This document shows, one piece after another, positions 3,297-22,420 of a stretch of 64,000 nucleotides of DNA (position 1 is its first letter; every line of letters begins with the position of its first letter). Source of the DNA: Oscillospiraceae bacterium (GTDB lineage Bacteria > Bacillota > Clostridia > Oscillospirales > Ruminococcaceae); NCBI GenBank assembly GCA_028692035.1, contig JAQUYD010000006.1:1-64000 (forward strand), written 5' to 3'. Under the pieces are notes generated by a model, which worked only from the letters and a program-made list of their open reading frames with translations, had not been told where the DNA came from and did not search any database. The translations under genes and the position numbers were made by a program.

Positions 3297-3339
3297 TTTC
3301 TGTGTAGAGCCGAGAAAAACAAATTTTATTCGTTGGGGG

Positions 3340-3371: not shown

Positions 3372-3442
3372 TCTCCGATGGAAAATCCGTCAGGTTTTAC
3401 GGCTGTTGAGCCGACAAAATTGCATTAAAAATGGAGGTATTT

Positions 3443-3736
3443 ATGAAAACAGGTCTTTCCAAGAAACAAAAGGCAACAAACATCTATTTTAATGAAGACA
3501 GCTCGATAATTGAGGTCTGTACTTACAACACTAATCTCAAAAACAGGCTCACCAAATATGCGGGGCAATATTCCGGTGAGTGCAGGCTGATTGATGATGA
3601 CGAAAACGGCTGCCTGACTTTTGAAATCAATAAAGGACGCTTTGGCTTCAAGCTTACAGCCCCGTACAGCCAAGAACGCCGCAAGGCTGCTGGTCAGTTG
3701 GCAAAGAAAGAAAATCTAAAGAGGAACGGATCATGA
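3443..3736 (+). CDS. Mobile-element conserved hypothetical protein
   Basis: ORF with RBS-like ggaggt upstream, overlaps next ORF by 4 nt; start may be the upstream ATG at 3431. Confidence 0.6.
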   Translation: MKTGLSKKQKATNIYFNEDSSIIEVCTYNTNLKNRLTKYAGQYSGECRLIDDDENGCLTFEINKGRFGFKLTAPYSQERRKAAGQLAKKENLKRNGS

Positions 3737-3978
3737 AAGTTATATCCTGTGAGTTCAATATGGATACTGCCTATGTGGAGCTGCAGCTGGACGATGGGAC
3801 ACTGATTGCCATTGATACCATCTCCGTGGAAAACGAAATCGCGGAGAATATATACCAGCGTTCAGAGCTGGACTGGCTAATCTACAACAAGCCGCTTGAA
3901 TACGCAGATATAATCTTGAATGGAGACCCAGCAAAGTATCTGAAAGCAATTACCAGGTATAAGCCATTTGATGAATGA
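3733..3978 (+). CDS. Mobile-element hypothetical protein (DUF6061-like)
   Basis: ATGA overlap with previous ORF; MKVISCEFNMDTAYVELQLDDGTLIAIDT. Confidence 0.6.
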   Translation: MKVISCEFNMDTAYVELQLDDGTLIAIDTISVENEIAENIYQRSELDWLIYNKPLEYADIILNGDPAKYLKAITRYKPFDE

Positions 3979-4058
3979 CCACACCGTCGCCCGTTGGAAA
4001 AAAGAAACGGGCGACATTTCCAACAAAGGTTATTTATCTCCCATGACAAAAATTATTC

Positions 4059-4109
4059 TTGACTTTTGCGGTGGGTTTGCATATAATATAGTTGAGCCCT
4101 TCTTAAGGG
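4059..4109 (+). promoter_or_regulatory. SigA-type promoter with palindromic element for the RM/CBASS operon
   Basis: TTGACT (4059-4064), 17-nt spacer, TATAAT (4082-4087), then palindrome CCCTT-CTT-AAGGG (4097-4109). Confidence 0.7.
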
Positions 4110-4144
4110 TGAAATTTTTGCAATGTTAAAGTTATTTTTTTCTC

Positions 4145-4762
4145 ATGACAAAGGAGTTGGTAAGACTGAAACTCGGAGATATTGCTTCTGTTAGGAGCGG
4201 CTTGGTATTATCGCGGAAGCTTTCAAAAACGCCTACGCAATATCGATATCAACTTATTAATTTACGCTCTATCAATCAGGCTGGCTATATTGAGACTGAG
4301 AATGTTGATTTATATGACGCGACAGAACCGCTGAGTTCTGAGTATCTGGCACATACAGGGGATGTTGTGATCCGGCTGACAGCACCATACACTGCCGTGT
4401 TGATTGATGACACTACATCGGGAATGGTCATCTCATCGAACTTGGTTGTGATTCGCGCGGATGCAAGCCAGATTTTGCCTGAGTACCTATACTGGCTTTT
4501 GAATACGCCTAAGGTAAAACGCCAGATATATGAAAACACTTCGAGCAACATGCTTGGTGCTATTAAGCCACGATATTTTGCTGATTTTGAGGTAAGTCTT
4601 CTATCAATGGAAAATCAGGAGACGATTGCGGCACTGAACCTTTTGGCGCACAAGGAACGTCAGCTTTTGAATGAGCTGGCAATGGAAAAAGAAAAATACT
4701 ATTCCTACACAATTAATGAGATACAAAAACAGATGAGAAGAGGTAACCGTCATGACGACTAA
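4145..4762 (+). CDS. Half-size type I restriction specificity protein (single TRD)
   Basis: HsdS-like LKLGDIASVRSGL..., coiled-coil end; 205 aa; precedes hsdM with overlap. Confidence 0.75.
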   Translation: MTKELVRLKLGDIASVRSGLVLSRKLSKTPTQYRYQLINLRSINQAGYIETENVDLYDATEPLSSEYLAHTGDVVIRLTAPYTAVLIDDTTSGMVISSNLVVIRADASQILPEYLYWLLNTPKVKRQIYENTSSNMLGAIKPRYFADFEVSLLSMENQETIAALNLLAHKERQLLNELAMEKEKYYSYTINEIQKQMRRGNRHDD

Positions 4763-6287
4763 AAGTGATATTGAGCGCGTTCTCTGGAGCGCCTGCGACA
4801 GCTTCCGGGGAAAGATTGACAGCTCTCGCTATAAAGACTATATCCTATCCATGCTTTTTGTAAAATATCTAAGCGATGTTTCTAAGGAAAAGCACGACGA
4901 ATACATGAAGCAGTACAATGGTGATGAGCGCCGTGTGGCACGAGCTATGAGCCGCGAGCGTTTTACCTTGGACGAAGACTCCACATTTGACTACCTGTAT
5001 GAAAACCGCAACGATTCCGAGATCGGTCAAAAAATCAATGTTGCGCTCTCCCACATTGAGGAACACAACAGTGGCAAGCTCCGAAACGTATTCCGTGCCA
5101 TTGACTTTAATTCTCAGGTGGACTTCGGCGACGTAAAGGAAAAGAATGCAACTTTGCGCAATCTGCTGGAGGATTTCAGTGGCATTGACCTTCGTCCCGG
5201 ACAGCTTGGCTCCGCCGATATCATTGGCGACGCCTATGAATATATGATCGCAAACTTTGCCTCAGATGCGGGCAAAAAGGGCGGAGAATTTTTTACCCCC
5301 AGTCAGGTTTCGGAACTGGTAGCATCCCTCGTAAAGCCGAGGGAGAATGATCGCATATATGACCCCACCTGCGGAAGCGGAGGCCTTTTGCTCAAGGCCT
5401 ATAAAAAAGTACACAGCGGCAAGGTTGCAATCTACGGACAGGAGCTGAACGCCCAGACCTGGGCACTCTGCACCATGAATATGTTCCTCCACGGTGTGGA
5501 TGACGCCCGCATCTGGCAGGGTGATACGCTGGCGAACCCTCAGAACATTGAAGATGACAAGCTCATGAAGTTCCAGTGTGTTGTCGCGAATCCGCCGTTC
5601 AGTCTGGACAAATGGGACAGCGGATTTCTCTCCAACGCGCCGGTGGATGCCAAAGGAAAAAAGCAGGAGAAAATGACAGCTTCCCTTGACTCGTGGAAAC
5701 GTTTTGACTGGGGCGTACCGCCGTCCTCCAAGGGCGACTATGCGTTTGTACTTCATATGTTGGCAAGCCTTGATGCTGAGAATGGACGCATGGCGATCGT
5801 GTTACCCCACGGTGTGCTGTTCCGTGGCGCCAGCGAAGGAAAAATCCGCAAACAGATCGTTGAATTCAATCTGCTTGATGCTGTCATCGGACTGCCGGCG
5901 AACCTGTTCTACGGCACCGGTATTCCCGCCTGCATTTTGGTATTCAAGAAGAATCGTACCCGCCGGGATGTGCTCTTTATTGACGCTTCCAGCGATGGAA
6001 ACTATGAAAAAGGAAAGAATCAGAACATCCTGCGTAACGAGGATATAGCCAAAATTGTCAGTACCTACGATGCACGCCAGAGCGTGGAAAAGTATGCGTA
6101 TGTTGCGTCCTTCGATGAAATCAAGGAGAATGACTTCAACCTGAATATTCCCCGCTATGTTGATACCTTTGAAGAGGAAGAACTGGTGGACATCGATGAG
6201 GTGAAGCGGAATATTACCAATATTGAAGTGGAACTTGCCGAAGTACAGGCGCAGATGAAGAAATATTTAAACGAATTGGGGTTGTGA
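4752..6287 (+). CDS. hsdM: Type I restriction-modification methyltransferase subunit
   Basis: GGEFFTPSQVSELVASLV, DPTCGSGGLLL, NPPFS motifs. Confidence 0.95.
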   Translation: MTTKSDIERVLWSACDSFRGKIDSSRYKDYILSMLFVKYLSDVSKEKHDEYMKQYNGDERRVARAMSRERFTLDEDSTFDYLYENRNDSEIGQKINVALSHIEEHNSGKLRNVFRAIDFNSQVDFGDVKEKNATLRNLLEDFSGIDLRPGQLGSADIIGDAYEYMIANFASDAGKKGGEFFTPSQVSELVASLVKPRENDRIYDPTCGSGGLLLKAYKKVHSGKVAIYGQELNAQTWALCTMNMFLHGVDDARIWQGDTLANPQNIEDDKLMKFQCVVANPPFSLDKWDSGFLSNAPVDAKGKKQEKMTASLDSWKRFDWGVPPSSKGDYAFVLHMLASLDAENGRMAIVLPHGVLFRGASEGKIRKQIVEFNLLDAVIGLPANLFYGTGIPACILVFKKNRTRRDVLFIDASSDGNYEKGKNQNILRNEDIAKIVSTYDARQSVEKYAYVASFDEIKENDFNLNIPRYVDTFEEEELVDIDEVKRNITNIEVELAEVQAQMKKYLNELGL

Positions 6288-7426
6288 TGGCAAAAGTGAA
6301 TTCAGAAATTGGTCGGACAGCAATCGATGAAAAAGTGCGAATGAAGTTATGGGCTGTCTCGGGTGGAAGATGTGAGCTATGCAATAGATTGTTGTACCAG
6401 GATCTTGTTTTCGGTTACGATGGAAATTTTGGAGAAATGGCGCATATTCATGCTGTCAGTGAAGGTGGCCCCCGCCACAAATATGGCATGACCATCGGCG
6501 AAAAGAATAATATTGACAATTTAATGTTGCTATGCGAAGAACATCATCACATGATAGATACGCACTCTGAAGATTTTAAGGAAGGGTTATTAATTAGGAA
6601 AAAGATAGCTCACGAAGCAAGAATTCGTGAGGTCACAGGAATCCCAAGTGAGCAGAGCTGCAGAATCATAACATATTTCTCAAATATTGATAATCAGGCA
6701 GAGTTTAGTTCAGAAAGACTTCTTCGTGAAGCTGTCCTGCTTTCGGGGCGTGTTCCAATGCAAGAGCCAATAATCAATCTAAGTGCTGACTCTTGTACGA
6801 GATATACGGCGAGTGAAACTGTTTTTCAACAAAAATCTCAAGAATTGGAGCGAGATTTTAAAAATTGGTTTGATGCTGTGATAAAAAGCAAGGATAGTAT
6901 CGGTATTTTCGCGCTTGCTCCACAACCACTATTATTTAAGCTTGGCACGCTCATTAACGATCAATACAACACGGTTGCATTCCAGTGCCATAGAAGTGGA
7001 CATAAATGGGCTTGGCCGAAAGCGGTAGCATCAGTTGAATTTCAATTCTCGAATACAAAGGAAGGAAAAACAGATGCGCTGGCTTTGGTAATTGATCTCA
7101 GCGCTCCTGTATGTGATGATAGAATCACATTTGTGCTTGGCGATGATGCTACAATTTATCATATAACGATAGATGAACCATCAAGGACTTTTGTATCCGG
7201 AGAAATCATTCAGGAAGAGTTTGTAAAAGTGTTCCGTGCCGCAATGGAAACTCTAAAAAATTTGCGCCCTGCGCCAGAATGTATTCATATTTTTCCTGTT
7301 ATGCCGAATTCTTTGGCAGTACGCGCCGGAATGGACTATATGCCTAAGGCGGATCTGCCAGTTATGATTTATGAGCAAGCAAATCAAGCAGATGGCTTTT
7401 TTAAGGCACTAACAATAGGAGGTTAA
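6287..7426 (+). CDS. cap5: CBASS effector: HNH endonuclease fused to SAVED domain (Cap5-like)
   Basis: HNH CELCNRLL...MAHIHAVSEGGPRH...NIDNLMLLCEEHHHMID; C-terminal SAVED-like region; adjacent to CD-NTase; ATG overlaps hsdM stop. Confidence 0.88.
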   Translation: MAKVNSEIGRTAIDEKVRMKLWAVSGGRCELCNRLLYQDLVFGYDGNFGEMAHIHAVSEGGPRHKYGMTIGEKNNIDNLMLLCEEHHHMIDTHSEDFKEGLLIRKKIAHEARIREVTGIPSEQSCRIITYFSNIDNQAEFSSERLLREAVLLSGRVPMQEPIINLSADSCTRYTASETVFQQKSQELERDFKNWFDAVIKSKDSIGIFALAPQPLLFKLGTLINDQYNTVAFQCHRSGHKWAWPKAVASVEFQFSNTKEGKTDALALVIDLSAPVCDDRITFVLGDDATIYHITIDEPSRTFVSGEIIQEEFVKVFRAAMETLKNLRPAPECIHIFPVMPNSLAVRAGMDYMPKADLPVMIYEQANQADGFFKALTIGG

Positions 7427-7427
7427 A

Positions 7428-8570
7428 ATGACAGATCAAGAAAAGATTCTGGGTATGCTCCTAAGTGGAATTGCAGACGAGATAAATATCACACCGACAA
7501 TGCAAGATAAAGCTATTAATAGCTATACTGCTGTTGGCAAGTGGATCGGTGATGGGTTGGACTATGATGTAAAAATAATGCCGCAGGGCTCCATGAATTT
7601 GGGAACGGTCATTAAGCCTATTGATGACCGAGACGATTATGACATGGACCTTGTATGCTTGCTTAAAAACGGTCAGTATCTTTCCTTAAAAGATATCAAG
7701 AATCTGGTTGGTGATCGGCTAAAAGAAAACGCTACATACTTTCAGAAACTTGAAAAAGAAGGTAAGCGCTGCTGGACGATGCAATATGATGAATTCCATA
7801 TGGACGTTTTGCCATGTGTTCCCCAAAATGGTTATTTTATCGAACCCAATATCACAGCGATTAAACTGACACACAAAATCGGCGACGGAATATATGCGCC
7901 ACGGTACAGCAATCCTTACGCATATTACAAGTGGTTTGATAACCGTATGAAAGATATCCTTTTGATCGAAAAGCGAGCCTTTGCTGTACAGAACAAGACT
8001 GAAATTGATAAAGTTCCAACATACAAAATGCGCACCCCTCTTCAAAAGGCAATTCAGTTGCTGAAACGTCATAGGGATATCTGCTTTCAAAATGCTTCGG
8101 ATGCTGCACCAATATCAATTATTATCACAACTCTTGCAGCATGGGCTTATAACGGTGAGACGAACGTATATGAAGCACTTTGCAATATCTTGGAACGAAT
8201 GCCCCAACACATTGAATGTCGGGATGGTATTTATTGGGTAGAAAATCCAACTATGCCGGAAGAAAACTTTGCTGACAAATGGAATGCAGAACCGAACAAG
8301 CGGACTACATTTAAGAGTTGGCTTGGCAGAGCAAGAAAAGAGCTAATTGATAATCCGCTTGCGCGCTTTGGAATGGATGGAATTGCAGAAGAATACAAGA
8401 AATATCTTGGAGAGAGACCAGTTCAGCGTGCATTTAATGCGGTGGGTGACAAAACGCGTATAGCGAGGGAACGGGGAGAACTTACAATCAATGGCCTCAC
8501 TGGGGGACTCTCTGCATCCGCTAAACATAGTGGCTATCCAGTAAAGGAGCATACGTTTTGGGGTGAATAA
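7428..8570 (+). CDS. CD-NTase (cyclic oligonucleotide synthase, SMODS nucleotidyltransferase)
   Basis: GSMNLGTVIKP, DDYDMDLVC and HMDVLPC give an intact GS...DxD...D catalytic triad. Confidence 0.9.
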   Translation: MTDQEKILGMLLSGIADEINITPTMQDKAINSYTAVGKWIGDGLDYDVKIMPQGSMNLGTVIKPIDDRDDYDMDLVCLLKNGQYLSLKDIKNLVGDRLKENATYFQKLEKEGKRCWTMQYDEFHMDVLPCVPQNGYFIEPNITAIKLTHKIGDGIYAPRYSNPYAYYKWFDNRMKDILLIEKRAFAVQNKTEIDKVPTYKMRTPLQKAIQLLKRHRDICFQNASDAAPISIIITTLAAWAYNGETNVYEALCNILERMPQHIECRDGIYWVENPTMPEENFADKWNAEPNKRTTFKSWLGRARKELIDNPLARFGMDGIAEEYKKYLGERPVQRAFNAVGDKTRIARERGELTINGLTGGLSASAKHSGYPVKEHTFWGE

Positions 8571-9042
8571 AAAGAAATATCTAAAAGCAAAAACATATCG
8601 ACTGATTGACCAACTGATAGCTATAAAACAAAGATTCCCAGAATCGGATGTCACCATCAAAAACGGGGCGTTGCACTGGAGCGGATACATGAAGCCGACA
8701 GCAGTTTCACGCATATACCATGTAGTAATCGACTACAAGGTGAGAAAGCGTCCTGTTGTAAGACTATGCGGGGATAATATACAAGGCCTTGATAGACCCA
8801 ATTTTCCTCATAAATTCCATACTGACTATGAAAAAAAGCAAGTTGATCTATGCTTACATCTTCGATATGAATTTACTTCCAGTATGCTAATCGCTGATAC
8901 AATAATTCCATGGGCAATTGAATGGTTATATTTTTATGAGATATGGTTGGCAACCGACACGTGGTGCGGTGGCGGAAAGCATCCTGAAGGGAAAAAGAAC
9001 TGTGGGGTAACACATGAGCATAATCTTAAAGCCGCTGTTTGA
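8563..9042 (+). CDS. Stand-alone prokaryotic E2-like conjugating protein (short type II CBASS)
   Basis: VDLCLH candidate catalytic Cys, PWAIEWLYFYEIWL, CGGGKHP; overlaps CD-NTase end; GTG start. Confidence 0.7.
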   Translation: MNKKKYLKAKTYRLIDQLIAIKQRFPESDVTIKNGALHWSGYMKPTAVSRIYHVVIDYKVRKRPVVRLCGDNIQGLDRPNFPHKFHTDYEKKQVDLCLHLRYEFTSSMLIADTIIPWAIEWLYFYEIWLATDTWCGGGKHPEGKKNCGVTHEHNLKAAV

Positions 9043-9412
9043 TATACTAACCGGCGATGTGGCCGTAATGGACAACGTGTTGTATAACTACCTCATTATG
9101 CTGGCCGTCGGTGAAATTGCCTTTTGGTTTGCGTTTAGTCTGGTTGGAGACGCCTATGACATAGGCATAATAAACGGAAAATCGGCAGGTTCCATTCTCC
9201 ACTGGATCATTCGATTAGTTATTTATGTAGCCATAGCCTATTTATTACGAGGCGGTATATGGTTGTATAAATTTGTGATAGGTGTACCGCACTGGGTATG
9301 GTGGACTTTAACAGGAGTCATTGTGGCCGCTATGATACTTGTGATTGTACTCCGCTATGTAAGGGAAAAGAGGACGAGCGAAAATGAACGAGCAGATAAA
9401 GAAACGAATTGA
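9014..9412 (+). CDS. Small integral membrane protein in CBASS cassette
   Basis: Three hydrophobic segments; overlaps E2-like ORF by 29 nt and hsdS by 29 nt. Confidence 0.75.
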   Translation: MSIILKPLFDILTGDVAVMDNVLYNYLIMLAVGEIAFWFAFSLVGDAYDIGIINGKSAGSILHWIIRLVIYVAIAYLLRGGIWLYKFVIGVPHWVWWTLTGVIVAAMILVIVLRYVREKRTSENERADKETN

Positions 9413-10628
9413 ACAGATTTTACGTGGTGAAGTGCCGGAGGGGTATAAGCACGAAAAGGTTGGTATCATACCTCAAGAATGGAAAGTCACTTCAGTCGGT
9501 AAATGCGTTCGTGAATATAAGATGTTGTCAAATGATGTGCAGAACACCCCTGTCTACTCATCATCTCGAAAAGGGCTTGTCCCACAATCTGAGTATTACG
9601 ATCTAAAAGAAGCCGTAGAAACAAACTTGGGATACAAAATTGTACCACAAGGGTATGTTACTTATAGACATATGAGCGATGATGATATTTTTCATTTCAA
9701 CATAAACAACACTGGCACTGATATTTTAGTCAGTAGCGAGTATCCGGTTTTTACTGCTTCACAAAGAGCTAATGTGGGGTTTTTGATACCTATATTAAAT
9801 GAAACGGCTCGATTTAGATATTTTTGCAGAACACAAAAATTGGGCGGGACAAGGACAAGATTATATTTCAAAAACTTAGAAGAATACCATATGGGAATTC
9901 CACCACTTCCCGAACAGGATAGAATTGCCGCCATCCTTACCACGCAGGATAAGGTGATTGAACTGAAAGAAAAGCTGCTTGCCGAAAAACAGCGGCAGAA
10001 AAAGTATCTGTGCCAGCAGCTTCTGACCGGCAAAAAGCGTCTGCCGGGGTTCAATGCGAAGTGGCAATTTGAACATCTTGGAAAGCTATTTGCCGAGAGG
10101 GTTGAAACTAAGCGAGAGGATTTGCCATTGCTCGCAATTACAGGAGCTCAGGGAATTATTCCTCGATCAGAGCTTGATTTAAAGGACAATTCGAGTGAGG
10201 ATAAGTCAAAGTATCTTAGAATTTGTGTTGGTGATATCGGCTATAACACAATGCGTATGTGGCAAGGGGTTTCCGCATACTCAAACCACGAGGGCATTGT
10301 CAGTCCGGCGTACACGATTCTAAAACCAGTTGATTCGATCAATGCGAAATACTTTGCATATCTATTTAAGATGCCCGAAGTAGTGTTTTTGTTTTACCGT
10401 TTTTCGCAGGGGCTCGTCGACGATACCCGCAATCTAAAGTACGATAACTTCAGAAGAATTAATGTCAACTATCCAATGGACAAGCGGGAGCAGGATGCTA
10501 TTGTAGAACATCTTTCCATTGCTGATCAAGAAATATCCCTTCTGAAAAAATCTATTGATGCCGAAAAACAAAAGAAAAAAGCCCTGATGCAGCTTCTGCT
10601 GTCGGGCATTGTGAGGGTGAAGGTATGA
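9384..10628 (+). CDS. hsdS: Type I restriction specificity subunit (two TRDs)
   Basis: PLPEQDRIAAILTTQDKVIELKEKLLAEKQRQKK conserved repeat and second TRD. Confidence 0.93.
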   Translation: MNEQIKKRIEQILRGEVPEGYKHEKVGIIPQEWKVTSVGKCVREYKMLSNDVQNTPVYSSSRKGLVPQSEYYDLKEAVETNLGYKIVPQGYVTYRHMSDDDIFHFNINNTGTDILVSSEYPVFTASQRANVGFLIPILNETARFRYFCRTQKLGGTRTRLYFKNLEEYHMGIPPLPEQDRIAAILTTQDKVIELKEKLLAEKQRQKKYLCQQLLTGKKRLPGFNAKWQFEHLGKLFAERVETKREDLPLLAITGAQGIIPRSELDLKDNSSEDKSKYLRICVGDIGYNTMRMWQGVSAYSNHEGIVSPAYTILKPVDSINAKYFAYLFKMPEVVFLFYRFSQGLVDDTRNLKYDNFRRINVNYPMDKREQDAIVEHLSIADQEISLLKKSIDAEKQKKKALMQLLLSGIVRVKV

Positions 10629-10838
10629 CTATATATTTTTACGATCAAGAAGTCAGGTAACCCAGTTTGCTATTCGCCTAACGCAAAAGATTATTACACA
10701 ATGGATGGCGCGGTATATGCATACGTCAAGAATGGCTACTGGTATTCTTATAAGGATAATAGTTGGTTCGGATGGCAAAAAGACAATTGGCTTTATGATT
10801 CCAACGGAAATCCACTATACTTTACAGAAAAGAGGTGA
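10626..10838 (+). pseudogene. Small gene interrupted by a one-nucleotide frameshift at a T5 run
   Basis: Removing one T gives MTIYFTIKKSGNPVCYSPNAKDYYTMDGAVYAYVKNGYWYSYKDNSWFGWQKDNWLYDSNGNPLYFTEKR; ATG overlaps the hsdS stop. Confidence 0.55.
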
Positions 10839-10844
10839 GACACA

Positions 10845-11024
10845 ATGGCAACAAATCCACCAAGTGGCGACGGTCACAGAAATGGCGCGGTAAAAGGCAG
10901 AACGCAGAGTTTGAACCCTAAAACAGGGCTCTACACAAAGCGTGATACCGAAACCGGGAAGTTTATGGATGTAAAAACGACCGGCGGCAAGTTCAAAGGC
11001 GTCACCAAAGAAAAGCAAGACTAA
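10845..11024 (+). CDS. Small basic protein of the RM operon (59 aa)
   Basis: MATNPPSGDGHRNGAVKGRTQSLNPKTGLYTKRDTETGKFMDVKTTGGKFKGVTKEKQD with RBS agaggtgag; not in supplied ORF track because of length. Confidence 0.75.
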   Translation: MATNPPSGDGHRNGAVKGRTQSLNPKTGLYTKRDTETGKFMDVKTTGGKFKGVTKEKQD

Positions 11025-11098
11025 GCACAGGAAGCGAGGCGGTTTTCACCGCCCCGCTATTCCTGCTTTTATAGATATTCCACTAAGGAGGCTCAATT

Positions 11099-14000
11099 AT
11101 GAACCCTGACCTCTATCTTGAAAAGAACGCCAGCCAGCAGCCAGCCATTGATTTGCTGCGTGCTATGGGCTATATTTACATATCACCTGAGGACTGCGCC
11201 ATGCAGCGCGGTAGTGGGTACCATGTGCTGCTCCGAGACATTCTGCGCGGCCAGCTGCGTCGGCTTAACCGCTATCTCTATGCCGGAGCGGAAAATGAAT
11301 TCTCCGCCGCCAATATTGAGCGGGCTATGGAGGATCTGGACGAGCCTCTGACGGATGGCCTCGTTCGTGCCAGTGAGAAAATTTACGACGCACTGCTGCT
11401 GGGTAAAAGCTATCCCGAAACCGTGGGTGACGGGAAAATGCTCAGCTTTAACCTCAAATACATCGACTGGGATCACCCGGAAAACAACCTCTACCATGTG
11501 ACGGAGGAATATGCCGTTGAAAGTCAGGACAAGCAGCATAATGCTCGCCCTGATATTGTGCTGTTTATCAACGGCATTCCATTTGCGGTGATCGAATGCA
11601 AAGCACCGCAGATTTCCGTCGATCAGGCGGTGGAACAGACTGTGCGCAACCAGCAGACAGACTATATCCCTCAACTCTTCAAGTACGCGCAGATCGTTAT
11701 GGCCACCAACAAGAATGCTGTGAAATACGCCACAGCTGGAACGCCGAAAAAGTTTTGGAATGTCTGGAAAGAGCAAAATGAAGCATTCATGAGCCGCCAG
11801 CTTGTGTGGCTGTTTGATGACCGTATGCCCACCGAACAAGATAAAAATATTATTTCGCTGTTCAGCAAAGAGCGTGTCATGGAACTCATGAGGTATTTCA
11901 TTCTCTATGACGCTAATGTTAAGAAGATTTGCCGCTATCAGCAGTATTTCGCAATTAAGGAGATTGTTAAAACCATCGGCGAAACCGACGAGCGCGGCAA
12001 TCGCCAGAGCGGTGTTATCTGGCATACACAAGGTAGCGGTAAGAGCCTGACCATGGTCATGCTGGCAAAGTATATCCTCATGGAGATGACAGACTGCCAT
12101 CCCAGAGTTGTAATTGTAACTGACCGTAAGGAGTTGGACGGTCAAATTGCCGCGACCTTTGCCCACACCCGGTTGAACCCTGCCCGTGCCACCAGCGGAC
12201 GACATTTGGTAGATCTTGTAAACAGCGGCAAGGCAGATGTGATTACGAGTATCATTAACAAGTTCAATACTGCTGAACGCATGGCAACAAAAAACGAGTC
12301 CAAAGACGTCTTTATTCTGGTGGACGAGAGCCATCGTTCAAATTACGGCCTTATGGCAACAAAGATGCGTAGCGTATTCCCCAACGCCTGCTATATCGGC
12401 TTTACCGGAACGCCCCTGATGAAGAAAGAAAAAAACACCATGTCCAAGTTTGGCAAGCTGATCCATAAGTACACAATAAAGGACGGCGTGGATGATGGCG
12501 CTATTGTGCCGCTAATCTACGAGGGGCGCTTTGTGGATCAAAATGTTGACGAGGAAAACATTGACCTTTGGTTTGAGCAGACCACCAAGCGGCTGACGGA
12601 TGCGCAGAAAGAAGATTTGGCAAAAAAATGGAGCAGTATCCGCCGCCTGACATCCACCGATGCACGGATTAAGCGTATCGCCCTTGATATTAACACTCAT
12701 TTCATTGAAGGCTATAAAAATACCGGATTCAAAGCTATGCTTGCCACGAACTATAAAAGAGATGCGGTTCGCTATCTTGAATGCTTTGAGCAGTTTGGCG
12801 ATTTGACCTGCGCCGTAGTTATTTCGCCGCCGGATATGCGTGAAAGCGTCGATGACATGGACGAGGGCACTGACGATAAGGTCGTGGCATACTGGAATAA
12901 AATGATGCGGCAGTATAGCGATGCAGACCGTTATGAAGAGGCTATGAAAAACAAGTTCTGCGACGGTGAAATCGATATACTCATCGTTTGCAGCAAGCTC
13001 CTCACTGGATTTGATGCACCTATTTGCCAAGTGCTATACATTGACAAGGAGCTGAAAGAGCATGGCCTCTTGCAGGCTATTGCACGCACCAATCGACTTC
13101 ACGAAGGCAAGGACTACGGCCTAATCGTTGATTATCGGGGGCTGATCGAAAAGCTGGATACCGCGATGGATATGTACAGCGGAGCAGGTCTTGAGAACTT
13201 TGACAGCGGAGACTTGAAGGGCGCGGTTGTGGATGTTATGTCGTCGGTGGGAACCTTGCGTGATTCGTATACCCGACTAATCGAACTGTTTGCCGCTGTT
13301 CGAAATAAAGCGGACGCAGAGGAAGTGGAAGTATTTCTTGCGGATGACAAGATCCGTGAGGACTTCTATAATCTTCTGTGTGCCTTTGGAAAGGCTCTCA
13401 ATCTGGTGCTGAATTCCGAGCAAGCTTATGCGGCTGTTCCGAGGGATGAACTGAAAAAATATCAAAGTACGTTTATCTTTTTTTCGAAGGTGCGACGCAG
13501 CGTAAAGATCCGTTATTGCGATGCCATAGACAACAGTGAGTACGAACCACTGATGCAAAATCTTTTAGATACCCACTTATCTGTAGCCGGTGTCCGTCAG
13601 ATCACAAGCCCAATCAACATTTTGAATAAGGATGACTTTGAAAAGGAACTGGACGAGCTTGGATCAATCCGAGCGAAAGCCGATGCAATTACAAGCCGCA
13701 TGACAAAGAGCATCAGCGAAAAGTATGATGAAAATCCCGCCTACTATGACAGCTTTTCCAAGAGAATAAAGGACGCGTTGGATCAGTATAAAGAACAAGT
13801 AATTACAGAGGCTGAGTATCTGGCCAAGATGCGTACCATTATGGAAGATTATCACGCCGGACGCAGCTCTATAAGTTACCCGGAATCTATTAAGAATAAT
13901 GTTCATGCACAGGCATTTTACGGTGTGCTTTCTGCCATTCTCGACGATGATAAGTCTGGAAATGTTGAACCGGATTTCGTTGCAGAAATAGCCGAGAAAA

Positions 14001-14188
14001 TTACGAAGACTATTGCAAAGCATAGTCAGGTGGACTGGACAAACAATAAGACCATTCATGATCGCATTTCACAGGATATTGATGACCTGTTTTATGAATA
14101 TGAGAAAACGCGCGGACTGAAGCTCTCATTTGATGTTATCGACAAGATCATAGAGAATGTCAAAACCGTTGCTCTGCGGAGGTTTTGA
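11099..14188 (+). CDS. hsdR: Type I restriction endonuclease subunit R
   Basis: PD-(E/D)xK region RPDIVLFINGIPFAVIECKAP; helicase motifs HTQGSGKSLTM, DESHRSNYG, FTGTPL. Confidence 0.95.
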   Translation: MNPDLYLEKNASQQPAIDLLRAMGYIYISPEDCAMQRGSGYHVLLRDILRGQLRRLNRYLYAGAENEFSAANIERAMEDLDEPLTDGLVRASEKIYDALLLGKSYPETVGDGKMLSFNLKYIDWDHPENNLYHVTEEYAVESQDKQHNARPDIVLFINGIPFAVIECKAPQISVDQAVEQTVRNQQTDYIPQLFKYAQIVMATNKNAVKYATAGTPKKFWNVWKEQNEAFMSRQLVWLFDDRMPTEQDKNIISLFSKERVMELMRYFILYDANVKKICRYQQYFAIKEIVKTIGETDERGNRQSGVIWHTQGSGKSLTMVMLAKYILMEMTDCHPRVVIVTDRKELDGQIAATFAHTRLNPARATSGRHLVDLVNSGKADVITSIINKFNTAERMATKNESKDVFILVDESHRSNYGLMATKMRSVFPNACYIGFTGTPLMKKEKNTMSKFGKLIHKYTIKDGVDDGAIVPLIYEGRFVDQNVDEENIDLWFEQTTKRLTDAQKEDLAKKWSSIRRLTSTDARIKRIALDINTHFIEGYKNTGFKAMLATNYKRDAVRYLECFEQFGDLTCAVVISPPDMRESVDDMDEGTDDKVVAYWNKMMRQYSDADRYEEAMKNKFCDGEIDILIVCSKLLTGFDAPICQVLYIDKELKEHGLLQAIARTNRLHEGKDYGLIVDYRGLIEKLDTAMDMYSGAGLENFDSGDLKGAVVDVMSSVGTLRDSYTRLIELFAAVRNKADAEEVEVFLADDKIREDFYNLLCAFGKALNLVLNSEQAYAAVPRDELKKYQSTFIFFSKVRRSVKIRYCDAIDNSEYEPLMQNLLDTHLSVAGVRQITSPINILNKDDFEKELDELGSIRAKADAITSRMTKSISEKYDENPAYYDSFSKRIKDALDQYKEQVITEAEYLAKMRTIMEDYHAGRSSISYPESIKNNVHAQAFYGVLSAILDDDKSGNVEPDFVAEIAEKITKTIAKHSQVDWTNNKTIHDRISQDIDDLFYEYEKTRGLKLSFDVIDKIIENVKTVALRRF

Positions 14189-14190
14189 GG

Positions 14191-14925
14191 ATGACCCCAA
14201 CTTCAACCCAACGCAAAGTAATGTCCGATGGTAAAGAGATCGCCTATCATTTGGAGCAAAAGCCAGTCAAAAATTTAAATCTTCGAATAAGAAAAGACGG
14301 CAGCGTCTATGTATCGGCAAATGATAATGTTCCAGTTGATAAAGTTGACGAATTTGTGGTCAGCAAGGGAGCCTATATTCTATCGGCTTTGCAACGATTT
14401 CAGGAACTGGCTCAATATCGTCCACAAGCAAAACGGTATATCAGCGGAGAAACCTTTTACATTTTAGGCCGAGGGCTGCGGCTAAAGGTTGTAGAAGGCT
14501 CGAAAAATGCAATCCATTCAGACGGTGTGTACATTTTTCTTCAGGCAAAAGATGCCACAGACGTAAAAAATAAAGAGCGCATTGTGACGCGATTTTTAGA
14601 TCAACAATGCAAAGATCAGTTTGGTGAGATTATGGCGGAAATTTATCCGCTGTTTCAGAAATACGGTGTAGCCCAGCCGACACTGCGCATTCGTGATATG
14701 GATACGCGATGGGGTTCATGCCTATCGAAAAAAGGAATAATCACATTAAATAAAAGATTGCTGGAAGCTCCCCGAAGCTGCATCGAGTATGTGGTAATGC
14801 ATGAATTTTGCCACTTTATTCACCCGAACCATTCCAAGCAGTTTTACGGCTTTCTTGCTATGCTGATGCCTGATTGGAAGAACCGTAAGGTGGCACTTGA
14901 TAAGTGTGCGGAATTTTGGCTATGA
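14191..14925 (+). CDS. YgjP/SprT-like zinc metalloprotease (RM-associated)
   Basis: RWGSCLSKKGIITLNKRLLEAP...VVMHEFCHFIHPNHSKQFY; HExxH motif. Confidence 0.88.
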   Translation: MTPTSTQRKVMSDGKEIAYHLEQKPVKNLNLRIRKDGSVYVSANDNVPVDKVDEFVVSKGAYILSALQRFQELAQYRPQAKRYISGETFYILGRGLRLKVVEGSKNAIHSDGVYIFLQAKDATDVKNKERIVTRFLDQQCKDQFGEIMAEIYPLFQKYGVAQPTLRIRDMDTRWGSCLSKKGIITLNKRLLEAPRSCIEYVVMHEFCHFIHPNHSKQFYGFLAMLMPDWKNRKVALDKCAEFWL

Positions 14926-15149
14926 ATTATTATTTCGTTATAATTTCATGGCAACAAAAAATCAGATAAGCGAGGCTTTTCGTTTTTGCCCAAAAATCAC
15001 GGTTACTAAACGTCCGGATAGTACAGGAGTTTCTATGATTGACCATAAAAGATCCAACTTCTGAAACCGCAAGGTTGCTAAAGTAAATTTCAGAGGATCA
15101 TCCCGATTTTGTGAGTTGGGTATAAACAGGAAAAGGAGACAGGATAGTT

Positions 15150-16262
15150 GTGAATGAAGAAATCATACTTAATATTGCAAAGCCATACGTAAAAGACAGC
15201 GCAATCACTTATGACGAATTTGACCAGTTGTTCTCTATCCTGTCGCGCAAAGAACAGTACGCAGTTTGTGATGTTCTTTTTAATAACGGAATAAACCTTG
15301 TTGATAGCAACGTTGCTGAGGACGCCCTTGTTCTCGACATAGATGCCGAGAATAATCTGGCAGAAGATTTCTTCGCAGATGATTTTGAAATTCACTATGA
15401 TGAAGATCCTTTTAGAGATAGAGCTTCCGGGAGCACCCTCATCGAAGAACTCGTTTTAAATAAGGAGGTTCGTCAATCTAATGATATCCTCTGTCGCCTA
15501 ATTCAACAAGGCAATCGGCAGGCCGTGCAGGATCTCTGTGTCAAGAATCATCGCCTGGTCAGCAAATATGTCTTTGCCTATGGAAAGCGTTATGCAAACA
15601 GACTTGATTCCGAAGATTTGGAACAGGTTGGCTTTATGGGGTTGATCAAAGCTGCCCAAAAGTTCGATTTGAGCCGTGGTGTTTCGTTTAGTACATATGC
15701 GGTTCATTGGATAAAGCAAGCTATAGCCAGAGAAATCATGGATCACGGATATGCTATTCGCATTCCGGTTCATATGATGGAACGGATCAACAAGGTTGTT
15801 GCAACAGATAATCGATTGGCTGGCGAAGGTATTCCCCTATTGGAGAGAATTCGTTCTGTGGCTGATGAACTTGGGATTAGCGAAGATGATGTAAGAGAAG
15901 CCTTGGCTCTTAGAAACAACTATTTGATGTATTCTTCGTTAGATATGCCTGTTGGTGAAGATCAGGACTCCGTTTTGGGAGACTTCATCCCTTTCGATGA
16001 AGAGCTATCTGTAGAACAAATCATCTTCGACAAAGAACTTCATCAAGAGTTGGAAACAATAATTGCTACTCTTAAACCCAAGGAACGGGAAATTCTTAAG
16101 TTGCGGTTTGGATGGAATGATAATCATCCGAAGACGTTGGAGGAAATAGGTATACTATACGGTGTTACGAGAGAAAGAATTCGTCAAATTGAAGCAAAAG
16201 CAATACGCAGACTTCGACATCCGTCACGTTCTCGTCGGCTAAAAGATTTTCAGGAGGATTGA
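15150..16262 (+). CDS. Sigma-70 family RNA polymerase sigma factor
   Basis: Region 2 DLEQVGFMGLIKAAQKFDLSRGVSFSTYAVHWIKQAIAREI; region 4 LEEIGILYGVTRERIRQIEAKAIRRLRHPSR. Confidence 0.92.
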   Translation: MNEEIILNIAKPYVKDSAITYDEFDQLFSILSRKEQYAVCDVLFNNGINLVDSNVAEDALVLDIDAENNLAEDFFADDFEIHYDEDPFRDRASGSTLIEELVLNKEVRQSNDILCRLIQQGNRQAVQDLCVKNHRLVSKYVFAYGKRYANRLDSEDLEQVGFMGLIKAAQKFDLSRGVSFSTYAVHWIKQAIAREIMDHGYAIRIPVHMMERINKVVATDNRLAGEGIPLLERIRSVADELGISEDDVREALALRNNYLMYSSLDMPVGEDQDSVLGDFIPFDEELSVEQIIFDKELHQELETIIATLKPKEREILKLRFGWNDNHPKTLEEIGILYGVTRERIRQIEAKAIRRLRHPSRSRRLKDFQED

Positions 16263-16264
16263 GT

Positions 16265-19200
16265 ATGGCCAATAGAGTAATAGCTAACTGCATTAGGGAG
16301 AAAATTGAGAACCTTAATATAGGAAACGATGCAATCGTTGTGCTGAAGGGCATTCCTCTTTCCATCGTTGACGATACCGTAGGGAGAATCGATTTATCAA
16401 ATGTCGTATCTAATAAACTGGGCTATTTTATGTCCATCTTTGGGCATAGACAGTTCTTAACTTTTGAAGAGTTCCTTCTTCTTGCCGACTTTATTGTTGC
16501 ACAGTATAAGGAAATTTACATTCTTAACAACAATATCTACATGGAGCAGTTCCCTGTAGAAGAATGCTTTCCTGCAGCGGTTCGTGCAGGGCTGTTAACG
16601 CATTTTGACGAATCAGACGAAGGTGAAACTGACAGCCGCTATATTGGTGATATTGATGAGTATGTTTCTGTTTTTGAGGGATTAAAGGAATACAATGGGT
16701 ACTTAATGGGCGCATACTGCTCTGTTCCTGCCTTGCGGAGTCCTAAAGTTATCACAGTAAATGTGTTCGAAAACAGCCATGAGGACTTTCTGTATTCGGT
16801 TGATCAAAGTGTCGATTTTATCGAGATTATTGAAGAATCTGACTATATCAATTTTGTGAAGCTTCTTTTTGCTGAACCCGACGAAATTTATGTTCGTATT
16901 ACTAACTATACAGGTGATGCCAACAAACTAAAGGATCACATTGCGCTTATTTATCACTATTGGCAAGAGTACACGGAAATATTTATTCTTCAGGCCCAGG
17001 AACTTGAAGATGAGTATTCTCACCGTGACGATTATTGCGAAATTCTAAGCAGATTTTGGGGTTATCCCTCTTTCAGGAACCTGCCTGTCTACGATATGGC
17101 TGCGCTTGAACGCGGCGAAAAAGTTGTCAAACAGGTATCCCAGGAGAGCATTATTGCCAACTTGGTTGAAGAAGTTGAGAACTGCGGCGAGAGTAAAGAT
17201 TTCCGAGACGTCTTTGTCACAGCGCCTACTGGCGCAGGTAAATCCGTAATGTTCCAGGTTCCAGCAATCTATCTCGCGGAAAAGTATAATCTGCTTACTA
17301 TTGTTATCTCGCCTCTCATTGGTTTGATGAATGATCAGGTTAAAAATCTGGAGCTGAAGAACTACTCTTTTGCAAAGACAATCAACTCGGATATTTCGCC
17401 TATTATCAAGCAAGACATTATTGAGAAGGTCTCCGATGGCCAATATCATATTCTTTACCTTTCGCCAGAAACGTTGCTTAGCCGTAGTGATGTGGAACAA
17501 CTGATCGGTGACAGAACCATTGGCATGATTGTAATCGACGAAGCCCACATAGTTACTACTTGGGGAAAACAGTTTCGCCCGGACTACTGGTATTTGGGAG
17601 ACCATATACGAAAGCTAAGAAAACAGCAGTTGAAAGCCAAAGGGCGATCCTTTGTAATTGGTACGTTTACTGCGACTGCTATTTATCATGGTCTGGAAGA
17701 CATGTACACGGAAACAATCAACAGCCTCCATATGCTGAGTCCTATTACTTATCTGGGCTATGTAAAACGTGGAGACATTGAAATTATAATTAACCGTCCA
17801 CAGAAACCGAAAGGAGTTCGTGCTGAGTATGAACTGGACAAGTTTGAACAAATTGAGGCGATCCTCCACCGGGCGATCATTACAAACAAGAAGACTCTCA
17901 TTTACTTCCCTACAGTTGCGCTGATTGAACGATGCTATGAATACTTTAGAAGCAAGCGCAAGATTGAGCATATAGCTGTTTATCATGGCTCACTCAGTAA
18001 AGAAGCAAAGCAAGAAAATTACGAGAAGTTTCTGGCTAAAGAAAAACTGGTTATGCTTGCAACAAAGGCGTTTGGCATGGGCATCGATATCAATGACATT
18101 GAATTGGTTGTCCATTTTGCGCCAACCGGTAATGTTTGCGACTATGTTCAGGAGATCGGTCGTGCCGCAAGACGAGAAGACTTAAGGGGCGAAGCTCTTT
18201 ATTACTACAATTCTCGCGACTTCAAGCATATTAACCGCTTGCACGGTATGTCCACCATACAGAAATATCAGCTGATAAAAGTTATTGAAAAGGTTGACGA
18301 ACTGTATCATCAGAATATGCAAAATGGAAATCGTAGGGATTTCACCAAAAAACGAAATGCTATGCTACTGGACGCAGAGAACTTCACCTATATTTTTGGT
18401 TCTCCAATCAGCGACGAAGACAGCAATGTTAACAAAGTGAAGACTGCGCTGCTTTTGATTCAGAAAGATTTTGAATCGAAGATTGGATTCTCGCCGATTA
18501 CTGTTAGGCCTATTCCGATGTTCTCTGTTGGATTCTTTGCTATTGAGCCAAATATTCAGCAGCGGTTACAGCGGCGCTATTGTCATTCTGTAGAGGAAAT
18601 TGACAGCAACAAGCACATTTGCCGTGTCTTGTTAAGTACAATTTGGGAGAAGGATTACAAGACCTTATCGTTCCCGAAGTTCAAATATCTGCTTTATACA
18701 AAGGATCACGAGAATTTGGACTTTGTGACTAAATATCCTATGAGTCCAGCTCTTTGCGTGACAGTCACATACAGCGATGACTATTCCAGTGATTTCAAAA
18801 ATATCTGGAGTTCGCTGAGAGGCTTTATCGGTCAAAAAGTTATCTCCGGTGAGCACACCGCGGTTTCCGAAATCGTGGATGAGCTTTCGTATTCCTGCGG
18901 CCTAAGTAAATACAAAGCGCAGACAATTTGTGAAGTTGTTATTGCATCTATGGACTCGTACAGAAAGAATTTTGCGCGTACTGCAACTCCTATTGTTTTG
19001 GAAAGAACAACCAATGACGGAAAAACAAAATATCAGTTCAACGTTGCGGTAAACTCGTATTTCCAATGGGTAGAGTCTGGTTTGCGTAAAATTGAAACTG
19101 AAACTAACGAAGAACGTCTGTATATCATCAATGACAGCGGCAAACAGGCAAAAGAATATAGTGTGATTCTTGGCGTCCTTGAATCTATGGGAATTCTCAC

Positions 19201-19483
19201 TTTCGAAATGATCGGTGGCGCTAACAGCCAGCTGTATATCTATATTAACCAGATCCAGGCATTGGAGAATATTCTCAATGCTCCTCATAATTATCGTAAC
19301 AGGCTGTTAGAGGCAGTTGCTGAAAGACATCTGATTTCGGTAAAGATGCTAACATATCTGTATGAAGGTGATTTCACCAACGAAGATCGATGGAGTCTGC
19401 TTGAAAACTATTTCTTGGGAGTAATTCCTGAAAAAGTAAAACACGATTGCAGACAGGAACGCCCTGATATTGTTTTCGATTAA
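16265..19483 (+). CDS. RecQ-like SF2 DNA helicase with about 300-aa N-terminal and long C-terminal extensions
   Basis: APTGAGKSVMFQVPAIYL, VIDEAHIVTTWGKQFRPDYW, TFTATA, QEIGRAARRE. Confidence 0.9.
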   Translation: MANRVIANCIREKIENLNIGNDAIVVLKGIPLSIVDDTVGRIDLSNVVSNKLGYFMSIFGHRQFLTFEEFLLLADFIVAQYKEIYILNNNIYMEQFPVEECFPAAVRAGLLTHFDESDEGETDSRYIGDIDEYVSVFEGLKEYNGYLMGAYCSVPALRSPKVITVNVFENSHEDFLYSVDQSVDFIEIIEESDYINFVKLLFAEPDEIYVRITNYTGDANKLKDHIALIYHYWQEYTEIFILQAQELEDEYSHRDDYCEILSRFWGYPSFRNLPVYDMAALERGEKVVKQVSQESIIANLVEEVENCGESKDFRDVFVTAPTGAGKSVMFQVPAIYLAEKYNLLTIVISPLIGLMNDQVKNLELKNYSFAKTINSDISPIIKQDIIEKVSDGQYHILYLSPETLLSRSDVEQLIGDRTIGMIVIDEAHIVTTWGKQFRPDYWYLGDHIRKLRKQQLKAKGRSFVIGTFTATAIYHGLEDMYTETINSLHMLSPITYLGYVKRGDIEIIINRPQKPKGVRAEYELDKFEQIEAILHRAIITNKKTLIYFPTVALIERCYEYFRSKRKIEHIAVYHGSLSKEAKQENYEKFLAKEKLVMLATKAFGMGIDINDIELVVHFAPTGNVCDYVQEIGRAARREDLRGEALYYYNSRDFKHINRLHGMSTIQKYQLIKVIEKVDELYHQNMQNGNRRDFTKKRNAMLLDAENFTYIFGSPISDEDSNVNKVKTALLLIQKDFESKIGFSPITVRPIPMFSVGFFAIEPNIQQRLQRRYCHSVEEIDSNKHICRVLLSTIWEKDYKTLSFPKFKYLLYTKDHENLDFVTKYPMSPALCVTVTYSDDYSSDFKNIWSSLRGFIGQKVISGEHTAVSEIVDELSYSCGLSKYKAQTICEVVIASMDSYRKNFARTATPIVLERTTNDGKTKYQFNVAVNSYFQWVESGLRKIETETNEERLYIINDSGKQAKEYSVILGVLESMGILTFEMIGGANSQLYIYINQIQALENILNAPHNYRNRLLEAVAERHLISVKMLTYLYEGDFTNEDRWSLLENYFLGVIPEKVKHDCRQERPDIVFD

Positions 19484-19856
19484 TCATGGGAACGAGATAT
19501 CTGGATTTTTATCGTTCTGTTTCAAATTGGTATTGTAATCAGGGACTATAATATTGGGGGATAAGCATTTGAAGAAGATGTCAGATCGAATCTTGATATC
19601 GAAAATGCCAGACGAGGTCTGACAAATTTAAGGAGTAAAAAACCAGACACTGTCTGGAAAATCAGCAAACAATATGCTATAATACATCCAAGCCACCTGT
19701 GCTGCCTCATCAAGGATTACCTGTGATAGTTCAGGGGTGATAGATTTTTGATAGCAAAATCTCGGATAGACCATAGGATAAGGATAATCTGTATCAAATA
19801 GAATAACGCCGTATCAAATCCGCTATACAGAAAAGTTTAGAAACGGATTTAACTTG

Positions 19857-19870
19857 GCGAGTGGGAATAA
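19857..19870. other. att-like core GCGAGTGGGAATAA (junction of tandem elements)
   Basis: Near-identical to 22407-22420; next to the integrase 3' end; GTTTAG located 22 nt upstream in both copies. Confidence 0.7.
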
Positions 19871-19886
19871 GAATTAGTGTTACTGC

Positions 19887-19931
19887 AATCTCGGAAGTCC
19901 TTGATATTACAGGGATTTCCGAGATTTTTCT
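19887..19931 (+). terminator. Rho-independent terminator-like hairpin
   Basis: AATCTCGGAAGTCCttgatattacAGGGATTTCCGAGATT followed by TTTTCTGTTTT. Confidence 0.6.
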
Positions 19932-19984
19932 GTTTTAGTGGCTACAAATTGGCTACATGAAACTGATTTTTTGTAGCCAGCGGC

Positions 19985-21073
19985 TCACGGCATCATACCG
20001 TCAAGCTGTCTGGCTACTTCCACCTGCTTGTTTGGATACAGATGGCTGTAAGTGTCCATTGTGATCTGCACCTTTTCGTGTCCGAGGCGCTCCGCAATCA
20101 GCAGCGGCGAGAATCCCATTTCCACAAGCAAACTGGCGTGGCTGTGACGAATATCATGCACCCGAATCCGCTTTACCCCCGATACCTTGCATCCATGCTC
20201 CATTTCGTGATACAGAAAGCTCTTGGTATAGGGAAACATACGGTCGTCTGGTTGCAGCTCGTAGCAATGGGACATATACTCCTTGAGACAGGTACACAAA
20301 CCGTCCGGGATGGGAATTGTGCGGTTGCTCTTGGGCGTCTTGGGAGAGGTAACGACATCCTCGCCGTTTAGCCTTTGATAGCTCTTGTTGACCGTCAGCG
20401 TTTTCTTCTCAAGGTCAATATCTGCCGGAGTAAGGGCAAGCAGCTCGCCCTCGCGGATGCCCGTGTAGTACATGGTCATAAAGATGGTGTAGCTTGCCGT
20501 CCTGTCTTTCATGCTCTCAATGAAGGTGTGAAACTCGTCCTTTGTCCAGAACAGCATTTCGTCGGCTTTCTTCTTGCCCATGCCGCCAGCCTTATGACAG
20601 GGATTTTCTCTCAGTCCGTAATACTTGACCGCATAGTTGAAGATTGCCGTGACTTGGTTGTTGATGGTCTTGAGATAGGTTTGAGAATAAGGCTGCCCGT
20701 TTTCGTTCCGGTAGCCGGTCAAGCTGTTCTGCCACTTGCGGATGTCGGTAGGCTTAATCTCTTGAAGCGGGATTTTACCGAAATAAGGCGTTACCTTCAG
20801 ATCAATCATCCAGCGTTTGTTGGCAATCGTCGAAGGCTTCAATCGTTGTTCCATGTCCCTCATATAGAGCTCGATGAAATCCTTAAATGTCATGCCCAGA
20901 CTGCCTGTGGTTTGGCTGATAAAATCACGTTCCCACTGTAAGGCTTCTTTCTTAGTAGAGAAGCCTCTTTTCTTTTTGTGGAGTTCTTTTCCCGTCCAGT
21001 CCTTGACGCGAAGCTGAGACATCCATTTTCCTGTTTTGCTATCCTTTGTTACTGACATTTGTCCTCCTTCCAT
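19985..21073 (-). CDS. int: Tyrosine recombinase/integrase (Tn916-like family)
   Basis: TGIREGELLAL, VHDIRHSHASLL, LGHEKVQITMDTYSHLYP. Confidence 0.95.
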   Translation of the reverse strand: MEGGQMSVTKDSKTGKWMSQLRVKDWTGKELHKKKRGFSTKKEALQWERDFISQTTGSLGMTFKDFIELYMRDMEQRLKPSTIANKRWMIDLKVTPYFGKIPLQEIKPTDIRKWQNSLTGYRNENGQPYSQTYLKTINNQVTAIFNYAVKYYGLRENPCHKAGGMGKKKADEMLFWTKDEFHTFIESMKDRTASYTIFMTMYYTGIREGELLALTPADIDLEKKTLTVNKSYQRLNGEDVVTSPKTPKSNRTIPIPDGLCTCLKEYMSHCYELQPDDRMFPYTKSFLYHEMEHGCKVSGVKRIRVHDIRHSHASLLVEMGFSPLLIAERLGHEKVQITMDTYSHLYPNKQVEVARQLDGMMP

Positions 21074-21094
21074 CCAGAATCAGGCTTTGATAGG

Positions 21095-21691
21095 TTATTC
21101 ACTTTCCGTACTTGAATAGGTTTTCTCTAAATACTCGGTTCGCTTTTGAATCCGCGCGTCCGGGTCGAGTTCTTCCGGCTCGGCACACTCCACGGCATTT
21201 GCCGCATAATAGGCAAGGATTTGTTCTTTCCACTTTTTGTAGGCTTTCTGTGTGGAGGCGAAAGAACGGATGTTGTCCCTTTCTTCCTCCCACTGTTCCA
21301 AGAACAGGCACATATCGGCGTTGAAATCCGCCATGCTCTTTCCGTCAAAGGTAATGGAGCACTCCCACTGTTTGCTACGTGGCGGCTTTTTCACATCAAT
21401 ATTGAAGTCAATGCCTACAACCGTTTCCAGCTTGAATAGAAAGTCCATGATGTCGGAAAGGTTTTTGATTTCTGCTGTACTGGATTCATATCCGAGAATA
21501 TAGGTCGATGTCGTCTCTAAAATGTCTGCAATCTGGTTGACAACGGCAATAGAAACCTCAATCTCTCCTGTTTCGTACTTCTGTACGGTGCGGAGGGATT
21601 TTTTTAGCCGCTGTGCCAGTTCGGTCTGATTGATACCTTTCCTTTTGCGGAGCGTTTTAATCCGCTGTCCGATTGCGGGATAATCAAAATT
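21095..21691 (-). CDS. XRE-family HTH repressor
   Basis: IGQRIKTLRKRKGINQTELAQRLKKSLRTVQKYETGEIEVS; exact start uncertain. Confidence 0.88.
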   Translation of the reverse strand, partial: NFDYPAIGQRIKTLRKRKGINQTELAQRLKKSLRTVQKYETGEIEVSIAVVNQIADILETTSTYILGYESSTAEIKNLSDIMDFLFKLETVVGIDFNIDVKKPPRSKQWECSITFDGKSMADFNADMCLFLEQWEEERDNIRSFASTQKAYKKWKEQILAYYAANAVECAEPEELDPDARIQKRTEYLEKTYSSTESE

Positions 21692-21771
21692 GTCCATGTC
21701 TGATTCACCTCGTCCATATTGTATCACGGAATAATACGAATTGCAAGTACATATTTATATTTCGTTTGGTA

Positions 21772-21824
21772 TTGACAAATGCACTCGCTGTGCGTATAAT
21801 GAAATATGTACTCAGAGTGCATAT
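21772..21824 (+). promoter_or_regulatory. Promoter with palindromic operator in divergent region
   Basis: TTGACA (21772-21777), 17 nt, TATAAT (21795-21800); palindrome ATATGTACTCAGAGTGCATAT (21804-21824); GCAC-N5-GTGC in spacer. Confidence 0.75.
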
Positions 21825-21900
21825 TTTAGAGTGGGGTTAGGAGGTGAACGCACAAGAGCTTCGCACTCTCCGCTGAAAATCAATGAAACAGGAGGTACTA

Positions 21901-22100
21901 TGAGAGCACAGTTTATCACCGCAGCAGAAATCGCCGAAATCATGGGCATCAGCCGAAGCAAATCCTATCAGATCGTCCGAGAGATGAACAAGGAACTGAA
22001 AGCGCAGGGTTATCTCACCGTAGCCGGAAAATGCCCCGCCCAGTATTTTAAGCAGAAGTTTTACGGGTTCCAGATTCCCGGAGGTGAGCGAAATGCCTGA
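21901..22100 (+). CDS. Small HTH (excisionase/MerR-like) element protein
   Basis: MRAQFITAAEIAEIMGISRSKSYQIVREMNKEL winged-helix-like start; RBS ggaggt. Confidence 0.75.
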
Positions 22101-22353
22101 AGCAAATGAAAAAACGACCGCCCTCATCCCATCTGTTGGCGCAGATGGAGGGCAGCCGCTTCACAATTCAACTGCACAAAGTATACCAGACCAAAACGCT
22201 GAAATCAATCCCCCAGAAGAAGATTTACAGGAACTTTATCGCCGGATGCAGCGCATGGCAGACCCGCATTATCTGCATACCGTCTCCATGACAGAGCTGT
22301 ATCAAACTACTTACAAGAGCAGACCGCCTATCTGGATAATGAAAACAATGTAA
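22093..22353 (+). pseudogene. Truncated N-terminal copy of the element ATPase
   Basis: EKTTALIPSVGADGGQPLHNSTAQSIPDQNAEINPPEEDLQELYRRMQRMADPHYLHTVSMTELYQTTYKSRPPI matches ORF 21-1202, then diverges. Confidence 0.88.
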
Positions 22354-22406
22354 ATACTCTGTGCTAAATCCCATAAGCAAAACTGTTTAGAACACGCTGA
22401 ACAGGA

Positions 22407-22420
22407 GCGAGTGGGAGTAA
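22407..22420. other. att-like core GCGAGTGGGAGTAA (right chromosomal junction)
   Basis: Direct repeat of 19857-19870. Confidence 0.65.

Follow-up and report, generated by a model that had tools for sequence, protein, structure and literature searches.

This work indicated that the guaA gene of an Oscillospiraceae bacterium (a gut-type Clostridia) probably carries at its 3' end guaA-specific integrative mobilizable elements arranged in tandem, among which a 2.55-kb remnant would result from a deletion across a core site, fusing the left end of one element type (type B) to a right-end module, RE1. The window, i.e., the whole stretch of 64,000 nt that was analysed, corresponds to bases 1-64000 of contig C28 in a 39-contig assembly, and its left edge is thus an assembly edge, since it starts at base 1 of that contig. 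Two elements are indeed stacked at one site, the second one being collapsed, as originally predicted. The features of this array are as follows (window coordinates unless C29 is named).

C29:32129-33266, left end assigned to element 1 (guaA-core-XRE-xis)
1..19856, + strand, element 1 (type A) except for ~2.5 kb at its left
19745..19760, + strand, right arm site of element 1, TTTTTGATAGCAAAAT, the same TGATAGCA repeat as in the two C29 left arm sites
19835..19870, + strand, attR of element 1 and attL of element 2, GTTTAGAA-N14-GCGAGTGGGAATAA
19887..19926, + strand, hairpin with a T-run, within the element 2 left end
19938..19958, + strand, left arm sites of element 2, TGGCTACAAATTGGCTACA
19985..21073, - strand, type B tyrosine integrase, 362 aa, intact (Pfam PF00589, E 7e-24)
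21095..21727, - strand, XRE-family repressor, 210 aa (HTH_3, E 3e-11)
21900..22100, + strand, excisionase-like small HTH protein, 66 aa (ICEBs1 Xis model NF047858, E 2e-15; 56 bits, below the curated cut-off of 100)
22084..22353, + strand, RepA-like AAA ATPase (AAA_25), ending after ~83 codons
22328..22332, putative deletion junction region between repA and the right-end module
22328..22420, + strand, right-end module RE1 (93 bp), ending in the second core
22385..22420, + strand, attR of element 2, GTTTAGAA-N14-GCGAGTGGGAGTAA
22442..22475, + strand, perfect hairpin with a T-run just beyond the array

The claimed direct-repeat cores were present, GCGAGTGGGAATAA at 19857-19870 and GCGAGTGGGAGTAA at 22407-22420, and each followed a GTTTAGAA box (at 19835 and 22385, respectively) at the same spacing of 22 nt, start to start. 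The core alone, with up to two mismatches, was found twice in the window for 0.76 occurrences expected, which is weak evidence; the composite GTTTAGAA-N14-GCGAGTGGGARTAA (36 bp), with up to three mismatches, matched exactly the two window sites and nothing in any of the shuffled sequences. These cores, with their boxes, are att sites. A whole-genome search for GAGTGGGARTA returned three sites: besides the pair already described, one at C29:32129, which constitutes the last codons and the stop of guaA (translation ...ATIEWE*; TIGR00884, E 4e-148). The predicted guaA gene does exist, on contig C29, the window starting at base 1 of its own contig. It ends in GAGTGGGAATAA and is followed by the left end of an element; the 1.1 kb of C29 that remain past the core hold an XRE gene and the greater part of an excisionase gene. 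The guaA 3' end had thus been rightly named as the target, because the core is the end of guaA on C29. Among 30 relatives of the type B integrase that were fetched, nearly all genomes showing the junction had it at a guaA-core; in L027, L028 and L043 other DNA preceded the core, namely, in L043, the end of another element. No tRNA or Rfam feature was found within the window.

Element 1 is flanked by core repeats at the guaA 3' end, one on C29 and the other at 19857, in line with site-specific integration. Its gene order reads core-XRE-xis-[int]-nikA-repA, with TGATAGCA arms, and relatives with a C29-type repressor display the order guaA-core-XRE(-)-xis(+)-int(+)-nikA-like(+)-repA(+). Positions 1-36 of the window are the tail of a NikA-like gene (DGMKEDSAYDE, compared with NGMQEEFAYDQ and similar endings in type A elements). 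The arm repeat TTTGATAGCA was found on both sides, at 88 bp from the guaA core on C29 and at 112 bp from the 19857 core, in each case towards the interior of the element, and the distances of the TGATAGCA arms on the C29 and C28 ends match those of the intact elements Evtepia-3 (Evtepia gabavorous), G244-2 and G097-2. Near-identical right ends to the attR region of element 1 were found in CCNA10 and in Evtepia gabavorous. Considering the arm-repeat and NikA/module matches, element 1 would therefore span from guaA on C29 to 19857, about 22.4 kb, the link between C29 and C28 being drawn from the assembly and from comparison with relatives. The gap between the two contigs, modelled at 1406 bp from a close relative, leaves room for an integrase and a NikA-like gene, and the element 1 integrase should fall within these ~1.4 kb, between xis and nikA. 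No other close copy of the integrase was found elsewhere in the genome, and its position in element 1 coincides with the assembly gap. A direct join of the C29 end to the C28 start, giving an integrase-less element 1, had looked perfect, with an xis ending in FYGTRNWTE* and then a ribosome site; it was rejected, and the neat reading frame attributed to chance, because relatives carry the integrase and the NikA-like gene between these points. The same order in relatives ruled out positions 1-36 as the C-terminus of an integrase.

The contents of element 1 are repA, mob, a type I restriction-modification system, CBASS, a YgjP-like protease, a sigma factor and a RecQ-like helicase. The relaxase, at 2028-3296, was recognized by Mob_Pre (E 3e-32), its match to the MobV model being below the cut-off. 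The restriction-modification system consists of hsdS, hsdM, hsdS and hsdR, with the CBASS set inserted within it: the operon, at 4145-14188, is interrupted by this set between hsdM and the second hsdS/hsdR. The genes of the set are the following.

6284-7426, HNH-SAVED effector
7428-8570, CD-NTase (cyclase)
8563-9042, E2-like protein
9014-9412, small membrane-like protein

At 15150-19483, an RpoD-like sigma factor (370 aa) overlaps a 1074-aa RecQ/DpdF-like helicase. PADLOC reported an MzaA-like region in the former and, for the latter, C3a193 ("poss. alt. Cas3") as the best model (E 1.6e-142). The two genes are a possible defense module close to the right boundary of element 1.

The second unit contains the four genes announced between the cores, namely, int, an XRE repressor, an HTH gene and a truncated ATPase. 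Contrary to the proposal that it represents the left end of an element like that at 1-19.8 kb, it is of a different sub-type, since it differs in integrase, gene order and arms. Its order is core-int(-)-XRE(-)-xis(+)-repA(+), with TGGCTACA arms where element 1 has TGATAGCA arms, and type A and type B integrases are about 50% identical. Every one of the 22 distinct type B left ends has TGGCTACA arms, which also occur on both ends of intact type B elements. The remnant repA shares 88% DNA identity with that of element 1 (window 42-266). The integrase retains R207, K245, H306, R309, H332 and Y342 at the motif positions, which we take to be its catalytic residues from the roles of such residues in tyrosine recombinases. 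The remnant thus keeps attL and attR (cores at 19857 and 22407), and int, xis and the repressor are intact open frames; no relaxase is present among the frames between 19857 and 22420.

The right end of the remnant is of another class as well. Homology to repA stops at 22332 and homology to right ends begins at 22328, with a microhomology of 3-5 bp (at least ATC, at most CTATC, depending on the repA sequence that was lost). RE1 matches, without repA, element right ends from about a dozen genomes of the family (83-89% identity for the better matches). The repA/RE1 junction, which is likewise deduced from the assembly and from comparison, was absent from all other genomes among 398 of the family; neither the junction nor the motif was found in viral contigs, and plasmids and phages gave only short distant matches. 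All three continuous type B elements (CCNA10, Evtepia and UBA5396) end in another module, RE3, whose TGGCTACA arms are some 110-122 bp inward of the core, while RE1 or an RE1-like module forms the right end of five traced type A elements (G008-2, G244-1, G097-1, G263-1 and G324-1), with TGGCAACA arms. In intact RE1 ends, these arms are found some 108-120 bp inward of the core, and the remnant lacks this outer TGGCAACA site because only about 80 bp of RE1 is retained in the window; its arms are therefore TGGCTACA on the left and none on the right. Since its right end is not the usual type B end, the deletion most likely crossed a core that is now lost, and fused two neighbors.

In the simplest history, an incoming type B element would have integrated at the shared core, with a further element, ending in RE1, standing beyond it. 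An illegitimate deletion at the 3-5 bp microhomology would then have joined repA to the RE1 right end, taking with it the type B body, its own right end, the intervening core and nearly all of the further element. Such a deletion, running across an RE3 end and the next core, implies that the array would once have held at least three elements.

The main rival to this fusion of two elements is a deletion within a single mosaic type B element: module exchange would first have given it an RE1 end, and the stretch from repA almost to that end would have been lost later. It needs one element fewer, right ends do recur as modules, and module exchange between accreted elements has been described (PMC5357655). 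The type B elements with RE3 amount to three continuous ones, and a mosaic with an RE1 end may exist; however, none was found, and the three continuous elements all end in RE3, so that we consider this explanation rather unlikely. A reading in which the 2.5-kb unit has been kept as a small satellite, minimal but functional and mobile, with int, xis and repressor genes of its own, is very improbable. Both cores are intact, the int, XRE and xis frames are open and the integrase retains its catalytic residues, but the right arm sites are missing, unlike in 13 of the 14 comparison elements, the junction has no second copy in the 398 family genomes or in viral contigs, and no other type B locus shows a core within a few kb on its other side. 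As for a false join by the assembler, the genome is in 39 contigs and this type of region is repetitive between elements, but the 3-5 bp shared at the join are far below assembly overlap lengths and both sides fit one array with the correct polarity, which makes such an artefact extremely improbable.

The deletion also bears on mobility. Left and right arms match in 13 of the 14 comparison elements, the exception being CCNA10-2, and this pairing, together with position, suggests the putative function of the arm repeats. Because the right arm sites for the remnant's own integrase were removed, no free 2.5-kb circle is predicted; judging from arm pairing, the remnant should have lost the ability to excise alone. 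It would then travel only as the last part of a longer segment, excised between the guaA core and the 22407 core by element 1's type A integrase and carrying both units.

The perfect hairpin predicted past the second core, at 22444-22473, is indeed present, at 22442-22475 with a T-run, and may be the native guaA terminator, as a candidate role. If it is this stranded terminator, the empty site would read guaA ...GAGTGGGAGTAA, then AAATTGAATTACCATTATG and the hairpin at 22442-22475. No empty site with the right flank of the array was found in searches with 22400-24000 and with guaA (41 genomes each), and no genome of the same genus among them showed this flank. In the two genus relatives with guaA in the assembly, the contigs terminate inside element-like DNA. 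Synteny around pcrA extends back only to 26.3 kb. The ~3.9 kb to the right of the array (22421-26337), which encode a glycosyltransferase-GtrA fusion, a VCA0040-like protein and a phosphodiester glycosidase, had no DNA match among the genus relatives compared, and this region may thus itself be variable DNA.

Arrays at guaA are common in Oscillospirales, and were found in CCNA10 (a complete genome), Evtepia gabavorous (three elements), G008, G244, G097, G263 and G324. In CCNA10-2, the arms are TGGCAACA on the left and TGATAGCA on the right, and behind a full integrase of the first class lies a truncated one belonging to the second, so that this element is apparently a second cross-element fusion. 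It spans L158:25-15224, and a fragment of a repressor remnant lies beyond its last (right) core. Separately, in L209 (POC01; 6092-8893), the type B integrase is in two pieces (residues 5-293 and 281-362) separated by about 1.7 kb, and thus appears to be interrupted by another insertion. We tentatively propose, as a possibility still somewhat doubtful, that cross-core deletions are a regular route to hybrid guaA elements with changed arm pairing, the remnant and CCNA10-2 being two independent cases.

Tandem accretion of ICEs, IMEs and CIMEs has been described (Pavlovic, 2004; Bellanger, 2011; reviewed in PMC5704250), and reviews also cover decay and the replacement of modules by deletion after accretion (PMC5704250, PMC5357655). 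Since guaA arrays are common, and accretion and decay already described, the two-element stack and its collapse can be regarded as an outcome of known processes: elements of like specificity were stacked at one attB via a resident att site, and one of them decayed. By contrast, the remnant appears to join two elements, and it kept int, xis and the repressor, whereas in a classical CIME the integration genes are gone. Tn5801-like elements also target the guaA 3' end, with 11-bp core direct repeats (PMC4844618), and share with the present elements a tyrosine integrase, this target and such repeats. Tn5801 is, however, a ~25-kb conjugative element of the Tn916 family with tet(M), whereas the window elements have a Mob_Pre/MobV-like relaxase and restriction-modification/CBASS cargo; no Tn916-type conjugation module or tet(M) was noticed among the scanned element 1 proteins. 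Streptococcal IMEs with Tyr_3 integrases are found at guaA or rplL, and tandem accretion and module exchange have been proposed for them (PMC5357655). They resemble the window elements in their guaA-specific tyrosine integrase and IME scale, but differ in host order and mobilization genes.

The array thus offers a clean case of elements stacking, decaying and swapping ends at one gene. The arm-repeat "dialects" TGATAGCA, TGGCAACA and TGGCTACA show which left and right ends belong together and reveal fusions, and guaA in Oscillospirales emerges as a busy hot spot for mobilizable elements with defense cargo.
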